DNA of 64,000 bases from the NCBI RefSeq assembly GCF_036013525.1, contig NZ_CP107853.1, positions 3,534,001 through 3,598,000 on the forward strand. The letters run 5' to 3'. Numbering within the stretch: the first letter of the stretch is position 1; each line of letters begins with the position of its first letter. This stretch comes from Nonomuraea sp. NBC_00507 (GTDB taxonomy: Bacteria > Actinomycetota > Actinomycetes > Streptosporangiales > Streptosporangiaceae). The notes below the pieces were generated by a model. It searched no databases, was not told where the DNA came from, and saw nothing but the letters and a program-made list of their open reading frames with translations. Shown here one piece after another: positions 9,436 through 55,405 of the stretch. The translations under genes were made by a program, and so were the position numbers.

Positions 9436-11474
9436 AGCGCCACCTCGATCTGCTTGCCGTTCTCGAGCATGGTCGCCGTCAACTTCACCGGTTTGCGGTA
9501 ATTGGCCAGGTCGAACACGAAGGCGCTGTCCACGCGGGCGCCCGGCAGGATGGCCGGGGGCAGCGTGACGGGGGCGGGGTCGTGCTCGCCGCCGCGGTCG
9601 TCGACCATGGTGACCACGGGCTGGATCAGCACTTTGCGCTCACCGCCCGGGTTGAGCATCGTCCAGCGGATCACGCAGAGCTGACCCTGGGTCGCGGTCT
9701 TGCCCTCGTACTCCTTCAGCCCGCACTCCGGGGCGGCCGCCACGATGGCGACGGGGTCGTCGAAGTTGGCGCCCAGCGGGAACCTGCGGCCCACGTCGTT
9801 CGGGCCGGCCGTGGGGGCGGCCTGGGACTGGTTGCCGGCGGTGGAGGGCACCGTGTTCCGGCCGGACGTGACGATCAGGACGGCCACCGTGACGACGATG
9901 GCCAGCACGGCCGCCGCGGCGGCGATGAGCCACCGGGTGCCCTGGGTTCTGGTGCCACCTAAGGTATCGGGCTCGCTCGGGAGCAGCTCCGGGGTGATCC
10001 GGCTCGCCTGATCGCCCGGCTGGGTGTCGGCGGCCGTTTGCCGCGGTTGCGCCTCGGGCGCCACAGGAGGCGCTTGCCGCATTTGCTGTTGCGCCTGGGC
10101 GTCGGGCGCTCCAGGAGCCGCTTGCCGCATTTGCTGTTGCGCTCGGGTGTCCGGCGCTCCAGGAGCCGCTTGAGGCGCCTGCCGCTCCTTCTGCCGATCG
10201 CCTCGCCGGAACAGCCCGCCGGGCCGAGCCTGCTCCTGACCAGGCGCTCCACCCTGGGCCGCGGCGGGCCAGCGGGCCAGCTCCTCCTTGGCCGCCTGCT
10301 CCTCCCTGCGCGCCAGCTCTTCGAACGACGCCGGATTCGGCCGTGCCTCACCCGGTCCGCCAGGCGCCGCCGTACCGGACCCGCCAGGCGCGACCGCGCC
10401 GGGTCGGGCCGGCGGCGCCGTACCAGAGCCGCCAGGCAGACCGGGTCCGCCCGGCGCTGGCGCGCCGGAGCCGCCAGGCGCCCCAGAGGAGGCGCTGGGC
10501 CCGCTAGGCGCTCGGCCCATGGTGTCGCTCGGCGGCGGAGTTGTGAACGTCGCCGTGATGTCGGGTTTGTCCACCACGTTCTGCGGCGGCTGCCAGTCAG
10601 TGAGCATCTCGGTCGCGACCAAGGTCGGCGGATTGACCGACGGCGGCGGCGTATTGCCTCCCACCAGCGCGATCAGCAGATCCTGCGCCGTCGGACGCGA
10701 CGCGGGATCCATCGAGGTGGCCTGCCGCGCCAGCTCATTCAGCGGCGCGGGCAGCGCGCCCAGCTCCGGTGGGGCGTTCAGCACGCGGTGGGCCATCGTG
10801 ATGGGGTCGCCACGGCCGAACGGATGCCGCCCGTTGCCCGCGTACGCCACCAGGCAGCCCCAGGCGAAGATGTCGGCCGCCGGGCTGACCATCTCACCAC
10901 GTACCTGCTCGGGCGCCCACCACCCCGGGCTGCCCAGCAACTCGCCGGAAAGGGTGAACCCGGTCTCCCTGTCGAGCGCCCTGGCGATCCCGAAGTCGAT
11001 CACCCGTGGCCCGGACAGCGAAAGGATCACGTTGGCGGGCTTGAGATCCCTGTGCACCAGCCCCGCCACGTGGATCGCGGCCAACGCTGCCGCCACCCCC
11101 AGCGCGACGCCATGGAGCGGTCCCGGATCCAGGGCCCCATATTTTGTGATCTGATCGGACAGCGGGGTGCCCGCGATGTACTCGGTCACCATGTACGGCC
11201 GCCCGTCACCGGTGTTGCCGTTGTCCAGCACCTGAGCCGTGCAGAACGACGCCACGCGGCGAGCGTTGTCGACCTCCGCATGGAACCTGGCCGCGAACCC
11301 CTCCTGGTTGGCGAACTCCGCCTTCACCACCTTGAGCGCGACGAAACGCCCCGTCGGCGCACGTGCGAGGAAGACGGTCCCCATCCCGCCTTCGCCGAGC
11401 CTGCCCAGCAGGCGATATGGCCCGATCTCCCGCAAGTCCGTCGGGCGGAGCGGCGCGGCGCCCGTTGGCTCCAT
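9432..11474 (-). CDS. Membrane-spanning serine/threonine protein kinase with extracellular DUF4352-like domain
   Basis: A 680-residue receptor-type kinase. The N-terminal Hanks kinase domain has the glycine loop [12 protein letters not shown] (24-35), catalytic Lys48 in [13 protein letters not shown] (141-149, Asp143), DFGIA (160-164) and WAPEQ (186-190). A proline/glycine/alanine-rich juxtamembrane linker (about 320-500) follows with collagen-like GGSG/PGGPG runs and 16-residue repeats. One membrane helix lies at 515-536. The extracellular module (540-680), with two cysteines (584, 600), resembles DUF4352 sensor domains. I chose ATG 11474 for its AGGAAGGG ribosome-binding site; ATG 11531 would add 19 residues. 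It is divergent from rsmA (88 bp) and coupled to the FG-GAP gene. The signal sensed is unknown. Confidence 0.87.
10060..10176 (-). repeat. 48-bp tandem repeat in the kinase linker
   Basis: About two and a half copies of a 48-bp unit (starts of the shared CGCTTGCCGC block at 10071 and 10119, partial copy at 10167). It encodes a 16-residue unit rich in Gln/Ala/Pro ([15 protein letters not shown]) in the juxtamembrane linker of the Ser/Thr kinase. The period is a multiple of three, so copy-number change would keep the frame and vary linker length. Confidence 0.75.
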
Positions 11475-19875: not shown

Positions 19876-20182
19876 ACATAGAGAATCGCAGACGCTCGCC
19901 CATCTCTTCCTGTGACTGACGGTCGCGTCCCCTGCGTCCGTGCGGTCGCGTCCCCTGCGTCCGTGCGGTCGCGTCCCCTGTGTCCGTGCGCCCCTGGTTC
20001 CATGCGCCCCTGCGCCCGTGAGCCGTGCGTCCTCGTGAGCCGTGAGCCATGCGTCCGTGCGCCGTGCGTCGTGCTCCCCTACGGTCGCGCCAACGCTGGT
20101 TTCCGTATGGCGTGGCCAGTCGTGAAGGCTCACGGAGTCCTCGCCGTTACGAGCGCATCGTTGGCCGGGATAACGGCGCAGA
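19876..20182 (+). other. 307-bp region downstream of tnpB with repeats
   Basis: No gene is supported. The right inverted-end candidate (19888-19911) and a triple 23-bp repeat (19921-19989) come first. A degenerate GTGAGCC/GTGCGTCC-rich stretch (about 20017-20075) follows, then unremarkable sequence up to the convergent end of the MarR gene. Confidence 0.5.
19921..19989 (+). repeat. Three tandem copies of a 23-bp repeat
   Basis: Units at 19921, 19944 and 19967, each starting GGTCGCGTCCCCTG; the first two are identical and the third has one change (TGTGTCC for TGCGTCC). The copies abut without spacers, so this is not a CRISPR array. It begins 10 bp beyond the proposed right end of the TnpB element. 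Confidence 0.85.
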
Positions 20183-51235: not shown

Positions 51236-51999
51236 TGACGATTCGCGACGACCACGCGCTCGCCGCTGACTTGGCGAGCGAGGCGGGCGAGCGGCTGCTG
51301 CGGATAAGGGAGCGCCTGGGGTTCGGCGACGCGCCCGCGCTCAAGGCGGAAGGCGATCGGTCCTCCCACGTCTTTCTGATGGAGTCCCTGGCCCGGCTGC
51401 GGCCCTCCGACAGCGTGTTGTCGGAGGAGGCCACCCGCGAGGAGCGGCTCGACCCGCGCAGGCTCGCGGCGGACCGGGTGTGGATCGTGGATCCCCTCGA
51501 CGGCACGCGCGAGTTTTCTGAGGAGGGCCGGGCTGACTGGGCCGTGCACGTGGCGTTGTGGGAGCGCGGGCAGCTGACCGCGGGCGCCGTGGCGCTGCCC
51601 GCCCAGGGCCGCACGCTGAGCACCGCCGAGCCGCCCAAGCCGCCCGCCTACGACGGAGGCCGCTTCCGCATCGCGGTCAGCCGCACCAGGCCGCCCGAGT
51701 TCGTCCAGAAATTGGCCTACCTTGCGGGCGCCGACCTCGTGCCGATCGGCTCGGCGGGGGCGAAGATCTCCGCGGTGCTCACCGGCGAGGTCGAGGCATA
51801 CGTGCACGCCGGCGGCCAGTATGAGTGGGATTCCGCCGCGCCCGTCGCCGTCGCGCTGGCCGCCGGGGCCCACGCGAGCCGAATCGACGGCTCGCGGCTC
51901 ACCTATAACCAAGCCGACCCGTCACTACCAGATATTCTGGTTTCCCTACCGGAGCTGGCGACATCTCTGCTCGCCGGCATTCGGGACCTGCACCGCTGA
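51235..51999 (+). CDS. cysQ: 3'(2'),5'-bisphosphate nucleotidase, inositol-monophosphatase family
   Basis: Removes the 3'-phosphate of PAP, the inhibitory by-product of sulfotransferases and PAPS reduction. A 254-residue metal-dependent phosphatase: LSEEATREERLD (61-72 region, metal Glu), RVWIVDPLDGTREFSE (about 80-95, the DPxDGT motif) and the C-terminal YEWDSAAPVAVALAAG (about 199-214, the last metal Asp). ATG 51235 sits at the glycosyltransferase stop (TGATG). It stands directly before cysD/cysN and near three sulfotransferase genes, so PAP clearing for glycan sulfation fits well. Confidence 0.87.
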   Translation: MTIRDDHALAADLASEAGERLLRIRERLGFGDAPALKAEGDRSSHVFLMESLARLRPSDSVLSEEATREERLDPRRLAADRVWIVDPLDGTREFSEEGRADWAVHVALWERGQLTAGAVALPAQGRTLSTAEPPKPPAYDGGRFRIAVSRTRPPEFVQKLAYLAGADLVPIGSAGAKISAVLTGEVEAYVHAGGQYEWDSAAPVAVALAAGAHASRIDGSRLTYNQADPSLPDILVSLPELATSLLAGIRDLHR

Positions 52000-52018
52000 A
52001 ACGCCGGAGGAAGCACCC

Positions 52019-52933
52019 ATGCTCCAGCGCGACTACACCACGTCGCAGCTTGACGTGCTCGAAGCCGAGGCCATCCACATCATGCGAGAGGTGGCGGCCG
52101 AGTTCGAGCGTCCGTGTCTGCTCTTCTCCGGGGGCAAGGACTCGATCGTCATGCTCCGCATCGCGGAGAAGGCGTTCTGGCCCGCGCCGATTCCGTTCCC
52201 CCTGATGCATGTGGACACCAGCCACAACTTCGACGAGGTCATCGAGTTCCGCGACCGCCGATCGGCGGAGCTGGGCGCGCGCCTGATCGTGGCCAGTGTC
52301 CAGGACTCCATCGACCAGGGCCGGGTCGTGGAGGAGACGGGGCGGCGCGCCTCGCGTAACCGGCTGCAGACCACCACGCTGCTGGACGCGATCGAGGAGC
52401 ACGAGTTCGACGCCGTGTTCGGCGGCGCGCGCCGCGACGAGGAGAAGGCCCGCGCCAAGGAGCGCGTGTTCTCCTTCCGCGACGACTTCGGTCAGTGGGA
52501 CCCGAAGAACCAGCGCCCCGAGCTGTGGAACCTTTACAACGCGCGCATCCGCAAGGGCGAGCACATCCGCGTCTTCCCGCTGTCCAACTGGACCGAGCTC
52601 GACGTCTGGGACTACATCAGGCGCGAGGGCATCGAGATCCCCTCCATCTACTTCGCCCACACCCGCAAGGTGTTCGAGCGTGACGGCATGCTGCTGCCCG
52701 ACTCCGACGTCGTGCAGCGCGGCGACGACGAGCCGCTGTTCGAGGCCGTCGTCCGTTACCGGACCGTGGGTGACATGACCTGCACCGGCGCCGTGCAGTC
52801 CACGGCCGCCACGGTCGAGGAGATCATCGAGGAGATCGCGGTCACCCGGATCACCGAGCGCGGGGCCACCAGGGCCGACGACCGCTCGTCCGAGGCCGCC
52901 ATGGAAGACCGGAAACGAGAGGGCTACTTCTAA
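52019..52933 (+). CDS. cysD: Sulfate adenylyltransferase subunit 2
   Basis: The catalytic half of ATP sulfurylase, making APS from ATP and sulfate with GTPase CysN. A 304-residue PP-loop protein: LLFSGGKDSIVMLRIAEKAF (34-53; SGGKDS loop 37-42), MHVDTSHNFDEVIEFRD, FGGARRDEEKARAKERVFSFRD, FPLSNWTELDVWDYI and the family C-terminus EDRKREGYF. ATG 52019 follows GGAGGAAG. The TAA overlaps the ATG of the first of three small tandem ORFs (TAATG) that stand between cysD and cysN. In most bacteria the two genes are directly adjacent. Confidence 0.96.
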   Translation: MLQRDYTTSQLDVLEAEAIHIMREVAAEFERPCLLFSGGKDSIVMLRIAEKAFWPAPIPFPLMHVDTSHNFDEVIEFRDRRSAELGARLIVASVQDSIDQGRVVEETGRRASRNRLQTTTLLDAIEEHEFDAVFGGARRDEEKARAKERVFSFRDDFGQWDPKNQRPELWNLYNARIRKGEHIRVFPLSNWTELDVWDYIRREGIEIPSIYFAHTRKVFERDGMLLPDSDVVQRGDDEPLFEAVVRYRTVGDMTCTGAVQSTAATVEEIIEEIAVTRITERGATRADDRSSEAAMEDRKREGYF

Positions 52934-53004
52934 TGCCAACCGTCCGTACCAGTTCCGGTTCACCCTGGAAGACCGGCTGTGTCTACTTCAAGGGCTACTT
53001 CTAA
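52933..53004 (+). CDS. Small ORF 1 of the cysD-cysN triplet (23 aa)
   Basis: A 23-residue ORF that begins MPTVRTSSGSPWK and ends GCVYFKGYF. Its ATG overlaps the cysD stop (TAATG) and its own TAA overlaps the ATG of the next copy. GAGAGGG, nine bases before the ATG and inside the end of cysD, is a fair ribosome-binding site. No signal peptide or known family. It has one Cys, encoded by TGT, a rare choice in this GC-rich DNA. The TAATG chain favours real translation by re-initiation; whether the peptide or only the act of translation matters is unknown. Confidence 0.5.
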   Translation: MPTVRTSSGSPWKTGCVYFKGYF

Positions 53005-53075
53005 TGCCGACCGTCCGTACCAGTTCCGGTTCACCCTGGAAGACCGGCTGTGTCTACTTCAAGGGCTACTTCTAA
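53004..53075 (+). CDS. Small ORF 2 of the cysD-cysN triplet (23 aa)
   Basis: Encodes the same 23 residues as copy 1 (one synonymous change, CCA to CCG, at codon 2). Linked by TAATG overlaps on both sides and preceded by AAGGG nine bases before the ATG. The conservation of peptide and overlap between copies would follow either from recent duplication or from selection. Confidence 0.5.
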   Translation: MPTVRTSSGSPWKTGCVYFKGYF

Positions 53076-53146
53076 TGCCGACCGTCCGTACCAGTTCCGG
53101 TTCACCCTGGAGGACCGGCTGTGTCTACTTCAAGGGCTACTTCTAA
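53075..53146 (+). CDS. Small ORF 3 of the cysD-cysN triplet (23 aa)
   Basis: Third copy, with one amino-acid change (Lys13 to Arg, AAG to AGG). Its stop is followed after one base by the cysN ATG (TAA-A-ATG), so ribosomes finishing it could re-initiate on cysN, which otherwise has only a distant AAGGG site. Confidence 0.5.
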   Translation: MPTVRTSSGSPWRTGCVYFKGYF

Positions 53147-53147
53147 A

Positions 53148-54410
53148 ATGGACATTCTTCGCTTTGCCACGGCGGGAAGCGTCGACGACGGCAAGTCCAC
53201 CCTCATCGGACGGTTGCTCTACGACTCCAAGGCGATCTTCGAGGACCAGCTCGAAGCCGTCGAGCGGACCTCACGTGACCGCGGCACCGAATACACCGAC
53301 CTGTCGCTGCTGACCGACGGGCTGCGGGCCGAGCGCGAGCAGGGCATCACGATCGACGTGGCATACCGTTATTTCGCGACGCCGCGCCGGAAGTTCATCA
53401 TCGCGGACACGCCGGGGCACATTCAGTACACCCGCAACATGGTCACCGGCGCCTCCACGGCCGACCTGGCGATCATCCTCATCGACGCCCGCAAGGGCGT
53501 GCTGGAGCAGTCGCGCCGGCACGCGTTCCTGACGTCGCTGCTGCGGGTCCCGCACCTGGTGCTGGCCGTCAACAAGATGGACCTGGTGGACTACTCGCAG
53601 GAGCGGTTCGAGGAGATCAGGGAGGAGTTCACGGCGTTCGCCTCCAAGCTCAACGTCTCCGACCTGACGTTCATCCCGATCTCCGCGCTCAACGGCGACA
53701 ACGTGGTCTCCCGCTCGGAGAACATGCCCTGGTATCTCGGCACGTCGCTGCTGCACCACCTGGAGAACGTGCACATCGCCTCCGACCGCAACCTGACCGA
53801 CGTGCGCTTCCCCGTGCAATACGTCATCCGCCCGCAGCGCGCCACCGAGCACGCCTTCCATGACTACCGCGGCTACGCTGGGCAGGTGGCGGGCGGCGTG
53901 CTGAAGCCGGGTGACGAGGTGGTGCACCTGCCGTCGGGCCTGACCACGCGGATCGCCTCGATCGACACGTTCGACGGCCCGGTGGAGGAGGCGTTCCCGC
54001 CCATGTCGGTGACGTTGCGTTTCGAGGACGACCTCGACATCTCGCGCGGCGATATGATCGCCCGGCCCAACAACCAGCCGAACGTGGCGCAGGAGCTGGA
54101 GGCGATGGTCTGCTGGATGGGCGACGGGGTCAAGCTGACGCCGCGCTCCAAGCTGACGATCAAGCACACCACCCGTACGGCCCGCGCCCTCGTCCGCGAC
54201 CTGCACTACCGGCTCGACGTCAACACCCTGCACCGGGACGAGGAGGCGACCTCGCTCGGCCTCAACGAGATCGGGCGGGTGTCGTTGCGCGTCACGCAGC
54301 CGCTGTTCGTGGACGACTACGGACGTAACCGGCTCACGGGCGGTTTCATCCTGGTGGACGAGGCCACGAACAGCACGGTCGGCGCCGGCATGATCATGGA
54401 CGGCCGCTGA
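53148..54410 (+). CDS. cysN: Sulfate adenylyltransferase subunit 1 (GTPase)
   Basis: The GTP-hydrolysing partner of CysD. A 420-residue EF-Tu-like GTPase: G1 GSVDDGKST (10-18), switch region GITIDVAYRYF (about 62-72), G3 DTPGH (87-91) and G4 NKMD (142-145), then two beta-barrel domains. It ends where stand-alone CysN ends; no CysC (APS kinase) domain is fused and no cysC gene is in the window, so PAPS formation needs a kinase elsewhere. I chose ATG 53148, since a GTG extension upstream would merely translate repeat DNA. Expression may depend on re-initiation from the small ORFs. Confidence 0.95.
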   Translation: MDILRFATAGSVDDGKSTLIGRLLYDSKAIFEDQLEAVERTSRDRGTEYTDLSLLTDGLRAEREQGITIDVAYRYFATPRRKFIIADTPGHIQYTRNMVTGASTADLAIILIDARKGVLEQSRRHAFLTSLLRVPHLVLAVNKMDLVDYSQERFEEIREEFTAFASKLNVSDLTFIPISALNGDNVVSRSENMPWYLGTSLLHHLENVHIASDRNLTDVRFPVQYVIRPQRATEHAFHDYRGYAGQVAGGVLKPGDEVVHLPSGLTTRIASIDTFDGPVEEAFPPMSVTLRFEDDLDISRGDMIARPNNQPNVAQELEAMVCWMGDGVKLTPRSKLTIKHTTRTARALVRDLHYRLDVNTLHRDEEATSLGLNEIGRVSLRVTQPLFVDDYGRNRLTGGFILVDEATNSTVGAGMIMDGR

Positions 54411-54502
54411 ACGGTAGATCTTTTCGCTCTTCCCTTACCCACTGATTACTCTCCGCGTTAGGGTTCTCGCGTTCCGTATTCGCGACGCGAAAGCCCTCCT
54501 CC

Positions 54503-55405
54503 GTGACCGACCGCGCTATCACCACCCGGGTGATCTACTTGGGCGGTTTGGGCCGTAGTGGCACCACTCTGCTCGAGAGGCTCCTTGGCGAGCTGCCCGG
54601 CGTGGTCGCGCTTGGGGAGGTAGTGCACCTGTGGGAGCGGGGAGTCCTGGCGAAGGAACCCTGCGGGTGTGGCGAGCCCTTCCCCGCCTGCGCCTTCTGG
54701 TGCCAGGTCGGGGAGCGCGCGTTCGGTGGTTGGGCGAGCGTGACGGCCAACCGGGTCCTGATGCTCCGGCGCCGGGTCGACCGCACCCGCAGGATCGTCC
54801 GCATCGCCCATCGCGATCTGGCCGAATACGTGCAGGCCTACCGGCTGGTTTACGCCGCCACCGGCGCCCGCGTCGTGATCGACTCCAGCAAGCACGCCTC
54901 CCTCGCCTGGTGTCTGGTGACGAGCGGCGTGGACGTCCACGTGGTCCATGTGGTCAGGGATCCGCGTGCCGTCGCCTACTCCTGGGGCAGGACCGTGGCG
55001 CGGCCTGAAGACGGGCAGCCGATGACCCGCTGGGGGCCCGCCCGCACGGCGCTGCAGTGGAGCGCGCAGAATGCCGCGCTGGAGCTGCTCGCGCGGCGCG
55101 GGGCCCGCGTGACGACGGTCCGCTACGAGGATCTGCTCGCCGCCCCTGAGCGCACGCTCACGGGGCTGGTCCGCGAGCTCGGGCTGTCCGGCGTCCCCGA
55201 GCTCCCGTTCGTCGACGGCCACGCCGTCTGGCTGGGGCCGTCGCACACGGTGTCCGGCAATCCGATGCGGTTCCACGTGGGGCGGGTGGAGCTGCGGCGA
55301 GACGACTCCTGGGCGACGGGGCTGGGCAATGGTGACCGGCGGGTGGTCAACGCGCTGACGTGGCCGCTGAGGGCCAGATACGGGTACGGGAGGGCGGCGG
55401 GGTGA
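54503..55405 (+). CDS. PAPS-dependent sulfotransferase family protein (1)
   Basis: A 300-residue sulfotransferase expected to move sulfate from PAPS to a hydroxyl or amino group of a carbohydrate or small molecule. The 5'-phosphosulfate loop is GGLGRSGTTLLERLLGELPG (14-33), the 3'-phosphate site HVVRDPRAVAYSWGR (about 151-165) and a C-terminal RFHVGRVELRRDDSW element resembles the PAPS-binding GxxGxxK region only loosely. It lacks membrane helices, unlike eukaryotic Golgi enzymes. GTG 54503 is 92 bp after cysN; its TGA overlaps the GT2 start (GTGA). The acceptor is presumably the local glycan. Confidence 0.83.
   Translation: MTDRAITTRVIYLGGLGRSGTTLLERLLGELPGVVALGEVVHLWERGVLAKEPCGCGEPFPACAFWCQVGERAFGGWASVTANRVLMLRRRVDRTRRIVRIAHRDLAEYVQAYRLVYAATGARVVIDSSKHASLAWCLVTSGVDVHVVHVVRDPRAVAYSWGRTVARPEDGQPMTRWGPARTALQWSAQNAALELLARRGARVTTVRYEDLLAAPERTLTGLVRELGLSGVPELPFVDGHAVWLGPSHTVSGNPMRFHVGRVELRRDDSWATGLGNGDRRVVNALTWPLRARYGYGRAAG

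Follow-up and report, generated by a model that had tools for sequence, protein, structure and literature searches.

What is the role of three tandem 71-bp units, each a 23-codon open reading frame (ORF) joined to its neighbours by TAATG, that separate cysD from cysN in Nonomuraea sp. NBC_00507, given that the two genes encode subunits of a single enzyme? The units lie at 52933-53146 of the stretch of DNA analysed here, 64,000 nucleotides of the forward strand of contig NZ_CP107853.1 (the window), and a preliminary description of their number, length, ORFs and links was confirmed by the sequence, the ORF list and Tandem Repeats Finder. From the arrangement of these elements and from the junctions of related genomes, it is probable that the array serves as a ribosome relay by which translation of cysN remains coupled to that of cysD in spite of the DNA inserted between them.

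The array (Table 1) was placed by Tandem Repeats Finder at 52920-53146 (period 71, 3.2 copies, 98% matches), with a score of 440 that is the highest among 23 rows for the window; other tandem repeats in the window include those at 10054-10172 (period 48, score 189) and 19920-19990 (period 23, score 135). An assembly artefact is an unlikely source of the array, since the 12.9 Mb genome of this strain is in 2 contigs and the array spans only 227 bp. The peptide MPTVRTSSGSPWKTGCVYFKGYF is identical in copies 1 and 2, and copy 3 carries a K13R change. The A of each rung ATG is the last A of the preceding TAA, and the TAA of rung 3 is followed by a single base (53147) and then by the cysN ATG at 53148, which gives link distances of -1, -1, -1 and +1.

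Table 1. Features of the cysD-cysN junction, with positions in the window.
Feature	Position	Strand	Basis
cysD, sulfate adenylyltransferase small subunit, 304 aa, ends ...MEDRKREGYF*	52019..52933	+	NCBIfam TIGR02039, E 1.3e-137
Coupling junction in cysD 3' end: SD-like GAGAGGG, then CTACTTCTAA	52917..52933	+	Sequence; last A starts rung 1
Rung 1, 23-codon ORF MPTVRTSSGSPWKTGCVYFKGYF, ATG overlapping cysD stop	52933..53004	+	Sequence, ORF list, Tandem Repeats Finder
Rung 2, 23-codon ORF, ATG overlapping rung 1 stop, own SD-like AAGGG upstream	53004..53075	+	
Rung 3, 23-codon ORF (K13R), ATG overlapping rung 2 stop	53075..53146	+	
cysN, sulfate adenylyltransferase large subunit (GTPase), starts MDILRFATAGSVDDGKST	53148..54410	+	NCBIfam TIGR02034, E 1.1e-173

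The preliminary description also placed one sequence block before every start, cysN included; the three rungs are immediately preceded by AGGGCTACTTCTA, and the cysN start follows AGGGCTACTTCTAAA. What all four starts share is a Shine-Dalgarno (SD)-like AGGG 9 or 11 bases upstream plus the block CTACTTCTA, which is the end of cysD and encodes the last CysD residues, EGYF; each start also has a weak 4-nt match to AAGGAGGTG upstream. Two features of a termination-reinitiation coupled gene pair are found in the window, as every link is a -1 or -4 overlap or a gap below ~10 nt, and an SD-like motif, although a weak match, precedes each downstream start. A comparison of 51800-54600 with Rfam yielded no family at gathering score, and a consensus scan of 52850-53200 yielded no promoter or terminator.

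The 3' end of cysD packs an SD-like motif, a stop and the overlapping next start into under 20 bases. This block also closes the 71-bp unit, and a complete, stop/start-linked mini ORF is thereby gained with every copy that is added; because 71 is 72 minus 1, a copy of the unit always restores the link. Ribosomes that end cysD would re-initiate on rung 1, then on rungs 2 and 3 and finally on cysN, with each rung handing ribosomes on so that cysN would remain coupled to cysD. Duplication of the junction would copy the SD, stop and start together, and the duplicated block could in this way supply the bridge for the insertion that it creates. An unbridged insertion would be predicted to cut the supply of CysN and be purged by selection, and bridged insertions should be approximately neutral, with copies gained and lost through short direct repeats.

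A copy count in relatives, one of the checks proposed at the outset, gave three copies in the window, none in another genome of the same species (G182) and a single diverged copy in four other Nonomuraea (G149, G189, G137 and G153). These counts derive from 53 genus loci placed in a tree, cysD being found in 52 of the 54 genomes of the genus set, one of them with two loci; 12 genus loci that contain second, more distant copies of cysD (L196-L207), none of them with a separate long spacer, were left out of the tree and the counts. Genome G154 has a second, closely similar cysD-cysN locus (C1:9186476-9187369 and 10850164-10851075). Inserts are thus carried by 5 of the 53 loci, with stop-to-start lengths of 214 bases in the window, 69 in G149, 67 in G189, 74 in G137 and 55 in G153, and in three of the five carriers, including the window, the last rung ends 1 to 3 bases before cysN without overlapping it. 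The window and G182 differ at 13 of 915 bases of cysD and at 13 of 1283 bases from the cysN start onward. Both have the junction ends TAAAATGG, and G137 and its empty sister G171 both have TAAAAAATGG, as expected if a copy had been lost (or gained) through a flanking direct repeat. Of the 13 positions at which cysD differs between the window and G182, three fall within the last 28 bases of the gene (window 52906-52915), and two of the three make the window tail resemble the repeat unit, which hints at conversion between the cysD tail and the unit.

The carriers are scattered on the tree, where 5 Fitch changes are needed for 5 carriers and the random mean is 4.9, so inheritance of the insert limited to one clade was rejected. 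The inserts are nevertheless related: outside the shared junction, homology was found when the window insert was compared with each of the other four (P 0.002 or less) and in 8 of the 10 carrier pairs (P 0.003 or less), with P 0.014 for G189-G153 and none outside the junction for G137-G153 (P 0.87). Relative to the window genome (G000), the unit differs at 7 of 66 bases in G149, 15 of 66 in G189 and 24 of 69 in G137, and the corresponding third-position differences of cysN are 0.16, 0.18 and 0.32. The fit is poor for G153 (22 of 51 bases vs 0.18), so plain inheritance does not account for every pair, because this unit has diverged more than cysN. On the whole, these values suit a history in which an old single copy was inherited at an approximately neutral rate, often lost, and tripled in the window strain; exchange of the unit between strains may be a further possibility.

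A cysD search matched 329 of 338 family genomes, 52 of them in the genus, and junctions were read in 97 of the 277 matched non-genus genomes (96 plus G058), namely those with the cysD most like that of the window; the sample therefore leans to close relatives of the window, and most genomes of genera g35 and g55 fall outside it. In 55 of the 96 non-genus loci the genes lie at a distance of -5 to +8 and are counted as spacer-free, 41 of these being at -1, the commonest state, and the other 41 have a spacer of over 8 nt. After three with a spacer in frame with cysN (an N-terminal extension; L284, L297 and L301) were dropped, the remaining 38, the five Nonomuraea inserts and G058 make up a set of 44 spacers of 34 to 220 bases from 15 genera.

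By walking from the cysD stop to the cysN start, it was found that 43 of these 44 spacers are fully bridged by linked small ORFs, compared with 10.0 expected from Markov shuffles that kept the end bases and left the length free by one base, a simple null applied to species that are not independent. When one spacer per genus was taken, 14 of 15 were bridged and 2.5 were expected. A single bridging ORF with a stop that overlaps the cysN ATG is present in 36 of the 44 (null 9.5, by a slightly stricter criterion); the walk was added to this count since multi-rung spacers and those with end gaps of 1-8 nt fail it. Spacer lengths are 1 mod 3 for 9 of 9 distinct lengths in genus g52 and 8 of 8 in g58, and an unbridged spacer of 117 nt occurs in G322. 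Ladders of two rungs are found in G020 and in a locus of another family (L358), and the window has three. Thus, among those family members with the overlap whose junctions were read, inserts at this site are almost always bridged while the peptide drifts, and the stop/start-linked chain of variable length that was originally described is borne out as a chain in which links and frame are kept. The spacer after cysD in G209 (L238) is bridged by an ORF of 71 codons and consists largely of a run of 24-base repeats, whose in-frame translation is MAGSRRSD or a close variant.

A different picture emerged from 17 further family loci (L313-L329) that were added to the survey. In 16 of them (L314-L329) cysN starts without an overlap, and their spacers of 41 to 221 bases are bridged in 2 of 16 cases, slightly above the 0.3 expected (P 0.03), to give 45 of 60 when pooled with the set of 44. 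Because spacers of similar size are bridged so rarely here, bridging, as read from these junctions, goes with the overlap and not with the base composition of the family. The low count also suggests that coupling of cysN to cysD can be given up, and these loci would represent a switch away from it. Many of the 16 have a TTGGAC-like stretch shortly before the cysN start. Of 42 loci from other families, 34 have a start in the cysN frame at -1 to +2, and no cysN was seen in one (L362). Eleven of these loci were walked in the same way; four have in-frame extensions and seven have separate spacers. All seven spacers are bridged; for L349, which has three possible cysN starts, this holds only if the farthest is taken.

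Some related spacers indicate where inserted DNA can come from. In G020 and G323 the spacer clearly repeats ~105 bases from the cysD 3' end, with scores of 161.5 and 138 against shuffle maxima of 30 and 31.5, and decayed copies of the cysD tail are found in G058 (38 vs a shuffle maximum of 28) and G202 (28 vs 28, P 0.003); the spacers of G068 and G303 show no likeness to the cysD tail beyond chance (P 0.25 and 0.35). Outside the junction, the window unit resembles the cysD tail in one 14-base stretch (P 0.004), and the units of the four Nonomuraea relatives give P 0.09 to 0.93. Derivation of the window unit from the cysD tail is therefore proposed by analogy, because its likeness outside the junction is short, and absent or weak in the relatives.

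Three other overlapping gene pairs of the window were used as controls, each read at 30 Nonomuraea loci of 53-54 matching genomes. One pair has a distance of -4 in 28 of 30 loci, +8 and +11 in the other two, and no long spacer. At glmU-prs (54 matches), the distance is -4 in 23 of the 30 loci read, -14 in one, and a 64-nt spacer is present in six, where it is spanned in 6 of 6 cases by a 23-codon ORF with ATGA links at both ends. This ORF (MTELVEVI...S in L374, L385, L386, L389, L392 and L395) has 81, 76 and 24 changes at codon positions 1, 2 and 3, summed over all pairs. The third pair is at -1 in 16 of 30 loci, and the other 14 distances include stops that the script met inside the upstream gene. 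At this third pair, L460 of G153 has a spacer of 4.8 copies of a 39-bp repeat (1299-1485); a single frame, which may begin with TTG, runs through the repeats and ends in the TGATG that starts the next gene. Bridged inserts at overlaps may therefore be a general phenomenon.

Several alternatives to a relay were weighed against these data. The preliminary description had suggested that a cysteine-containing peptide senses sulfur status, and a functional or cysteine-sensing 23-mer would suit the sulfur assimilation operon, the one Cys codon in each unit and the poly-Cys leader ORFs that occur in mycobacteria. However, the unit has a single Cys and not the run of Cys codons of a Cys leader; 16 of 1578 residues (1.0%) are Cys in 46 bridging peptides, of which 13 hold any; Cys-16 of the 23-mer is replaced by Tyr in G189, and the G153 peptide lacks Cys altogether; and the rung peptide has no NCBIfam match. 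The changes between copies also look neutral, since the codon substitution pattern, another check proposed at the outset, showed amino-acid changes about as frequent as in neutral simulation, with the synonymous share at or below the simulated 95% point in 10 of 10 Nonomuraea pairs. This explanation is scarcely credible. Among same-length pairs in g46 and g58, the third codon position is the most changed in 6 of 8, which would be a weak and non-independent sign of coding, and one g52 pair shows the reverse. Bridging peptides are mostly unlike between genera; an RTTSGEQF-like ending is common to several, and the same DNA carries the cysN SD. Selection thus seems to act on the links and frame of bridging ORFs, and the rung peptide is probably a by-product. 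Action of the repeat through its CCGGT/ACCGG hairpins, also raised at the outset, was rejected, since shuffled sequences fold at least as well as the three window units (z +1.33, +1.36 and +1.01); units of two relatives gave z -0.52 and +0.34. It could also be argued that linked ORFs arise by chance and are meaningless, as most frames of a GC-rich spacer are open: the bridging frame is open in 37 of the 44 spacers, the other two frames in 25 and 31, and 16 spacers are open in every frame, and even the uncoupled spacers are bridged slightly more often than expected. Yet an open frame does not suffice, as the phase and both links must fit as well, and the excess of bridged spacers over the 10 expected makes this explanation very improbable.

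Two further explanations concern why the unit is there and how it arrived. If each rung lost a share of ribosomes, copy number could act as a rheostat that sets, and is selected for, the CysD:CysN ratio, and the difference between three copies in the window and none in its close relative G182 is what such tuning might produce. We consider this unlikely, because the scattered carriers show no sign of a selected level and the SD-like motif on each rung would offset losses. That the unit is a mobile repeat which inserts at overlapping stop/start sites, in the manner of the mycobacterial MIRUs, is distinctly improbable. Its patchy occurrence, the excess divergence of the G153 copy and the logic shared with MIRUs, short repeats with an ORF coupled to the next gene (as outlined in PMC12548453), would favour such an element, but the unit has one locus with E below 0.1 in its own genome and is thus not dispersed over many intergenic loci. 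Of the 12 weak matches that follow (E 0.11 or more), five were read in context, and all five overlap open frames of 100 codons or more. The 13 matches in 341 family genomes include 11 at cysD-cysN, six of which cover no more than the final 27-28 bases of the query; of the two elsewhere, L140 lies inside long open frames and L141 does not. In addition, divergence of the unit in G149, G189 and G137 is close to that of cysN third positions. A dispersed mobile element was therefore rejected as the main reading.

The relay proposed for the array bears on a disputed point, namely how ribosomes cross gaps between genes. According to Huber et al. (2023; PMC10666635), the coupling of overlapping genes works by termination-reinitiation, overlaps are over-represented among genes for subunits of heteromeric complexes, the class to which CysD and CysN belong, and gaps of ~20 nt almost abolish coupling in both E. 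coli and Haloferax; the rival model is one of long scanning, and contrary work cited in a review (PMC12548453) describes spacing up to +25 nt without lower coupling. The lineages read here that use the overlap provide a natural test, as they have inserts of 34 to 220 nt almost only when these are spanned by linked mini ORFs, and natural variants with 0, 1, 2 and 3 rungs are available for measuring the cost per re-initiation; bridged inserts also offer a simple route for the birth of small ORFs. As a tentative extension, which is possible although not the likelier outcome, stop/start overlaps may be self-propagating, such that tandem duplication of a junction generates new coupled mini ORFs if the unit is 3n-1 long and open. 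Actinobacterial operons might then keep growing and losing chains of relay ORFs, of which cysD-cysN, glmU-prs and the other junction would be instances, and such chains could be a nursery of small ORFs whose length can shift subunit ratios between strains.

A search of open-licence literature for small ORFs at cysD-cysN, or for relay ORFs, found no title or opening of an abstract on the cysD-cysN junction, and the array is best placed by comparison with known systems. Like the termination-reinitiation pairs described in the relevant parts of PMC10666635 and PMC6728339, it has a TGATG or TAATG overlap, an SD-like motif inside the upstream gene, and genes for subunits of one complex; in those papers two genes are coupled directly, whereas cysD-cysN interposes up to three mini ORFs and keeps the link at each step. 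Bicistronic designs and uORFs, as presented in PMC12548453, also use short ORFs that deliver the ribosome to the next gene, but they are upstream or engineered, while the rungs lie inside an operon between two long genes and ORFs of this type recur in different forms across many genera.

A likeness also exists to the mycobacterial MIRUs, and the earlier statement that there is no described equivalent does not stand, since MIRUs too are short repeats that carry an ORF coupled to the next gene, which is expressed almost as before when one of them inserts (PMC12548453, citing Supply et al., 1997, in its account of these elements). By the same account, MIRUs are interspersed, appear mobile and have -4 nt links, whereas the array occupies one locus with -1 nt TAATG links; the start and stop of its ORFs overlap their neighbours as in MIRUs, yet fall one base short at cysN. 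Some related cysD-cysN spacers are local copies of the end of the upstream gene, unlike MIRUs as they are described there. For three reasons the array is not classed as a MIRU: it is not dispersed, its links are of the -1 type, and in form it is akin to local duplications. The relay logic itself is already known from MIRUs, as far as that account describes them, and the array is a new variant of it.
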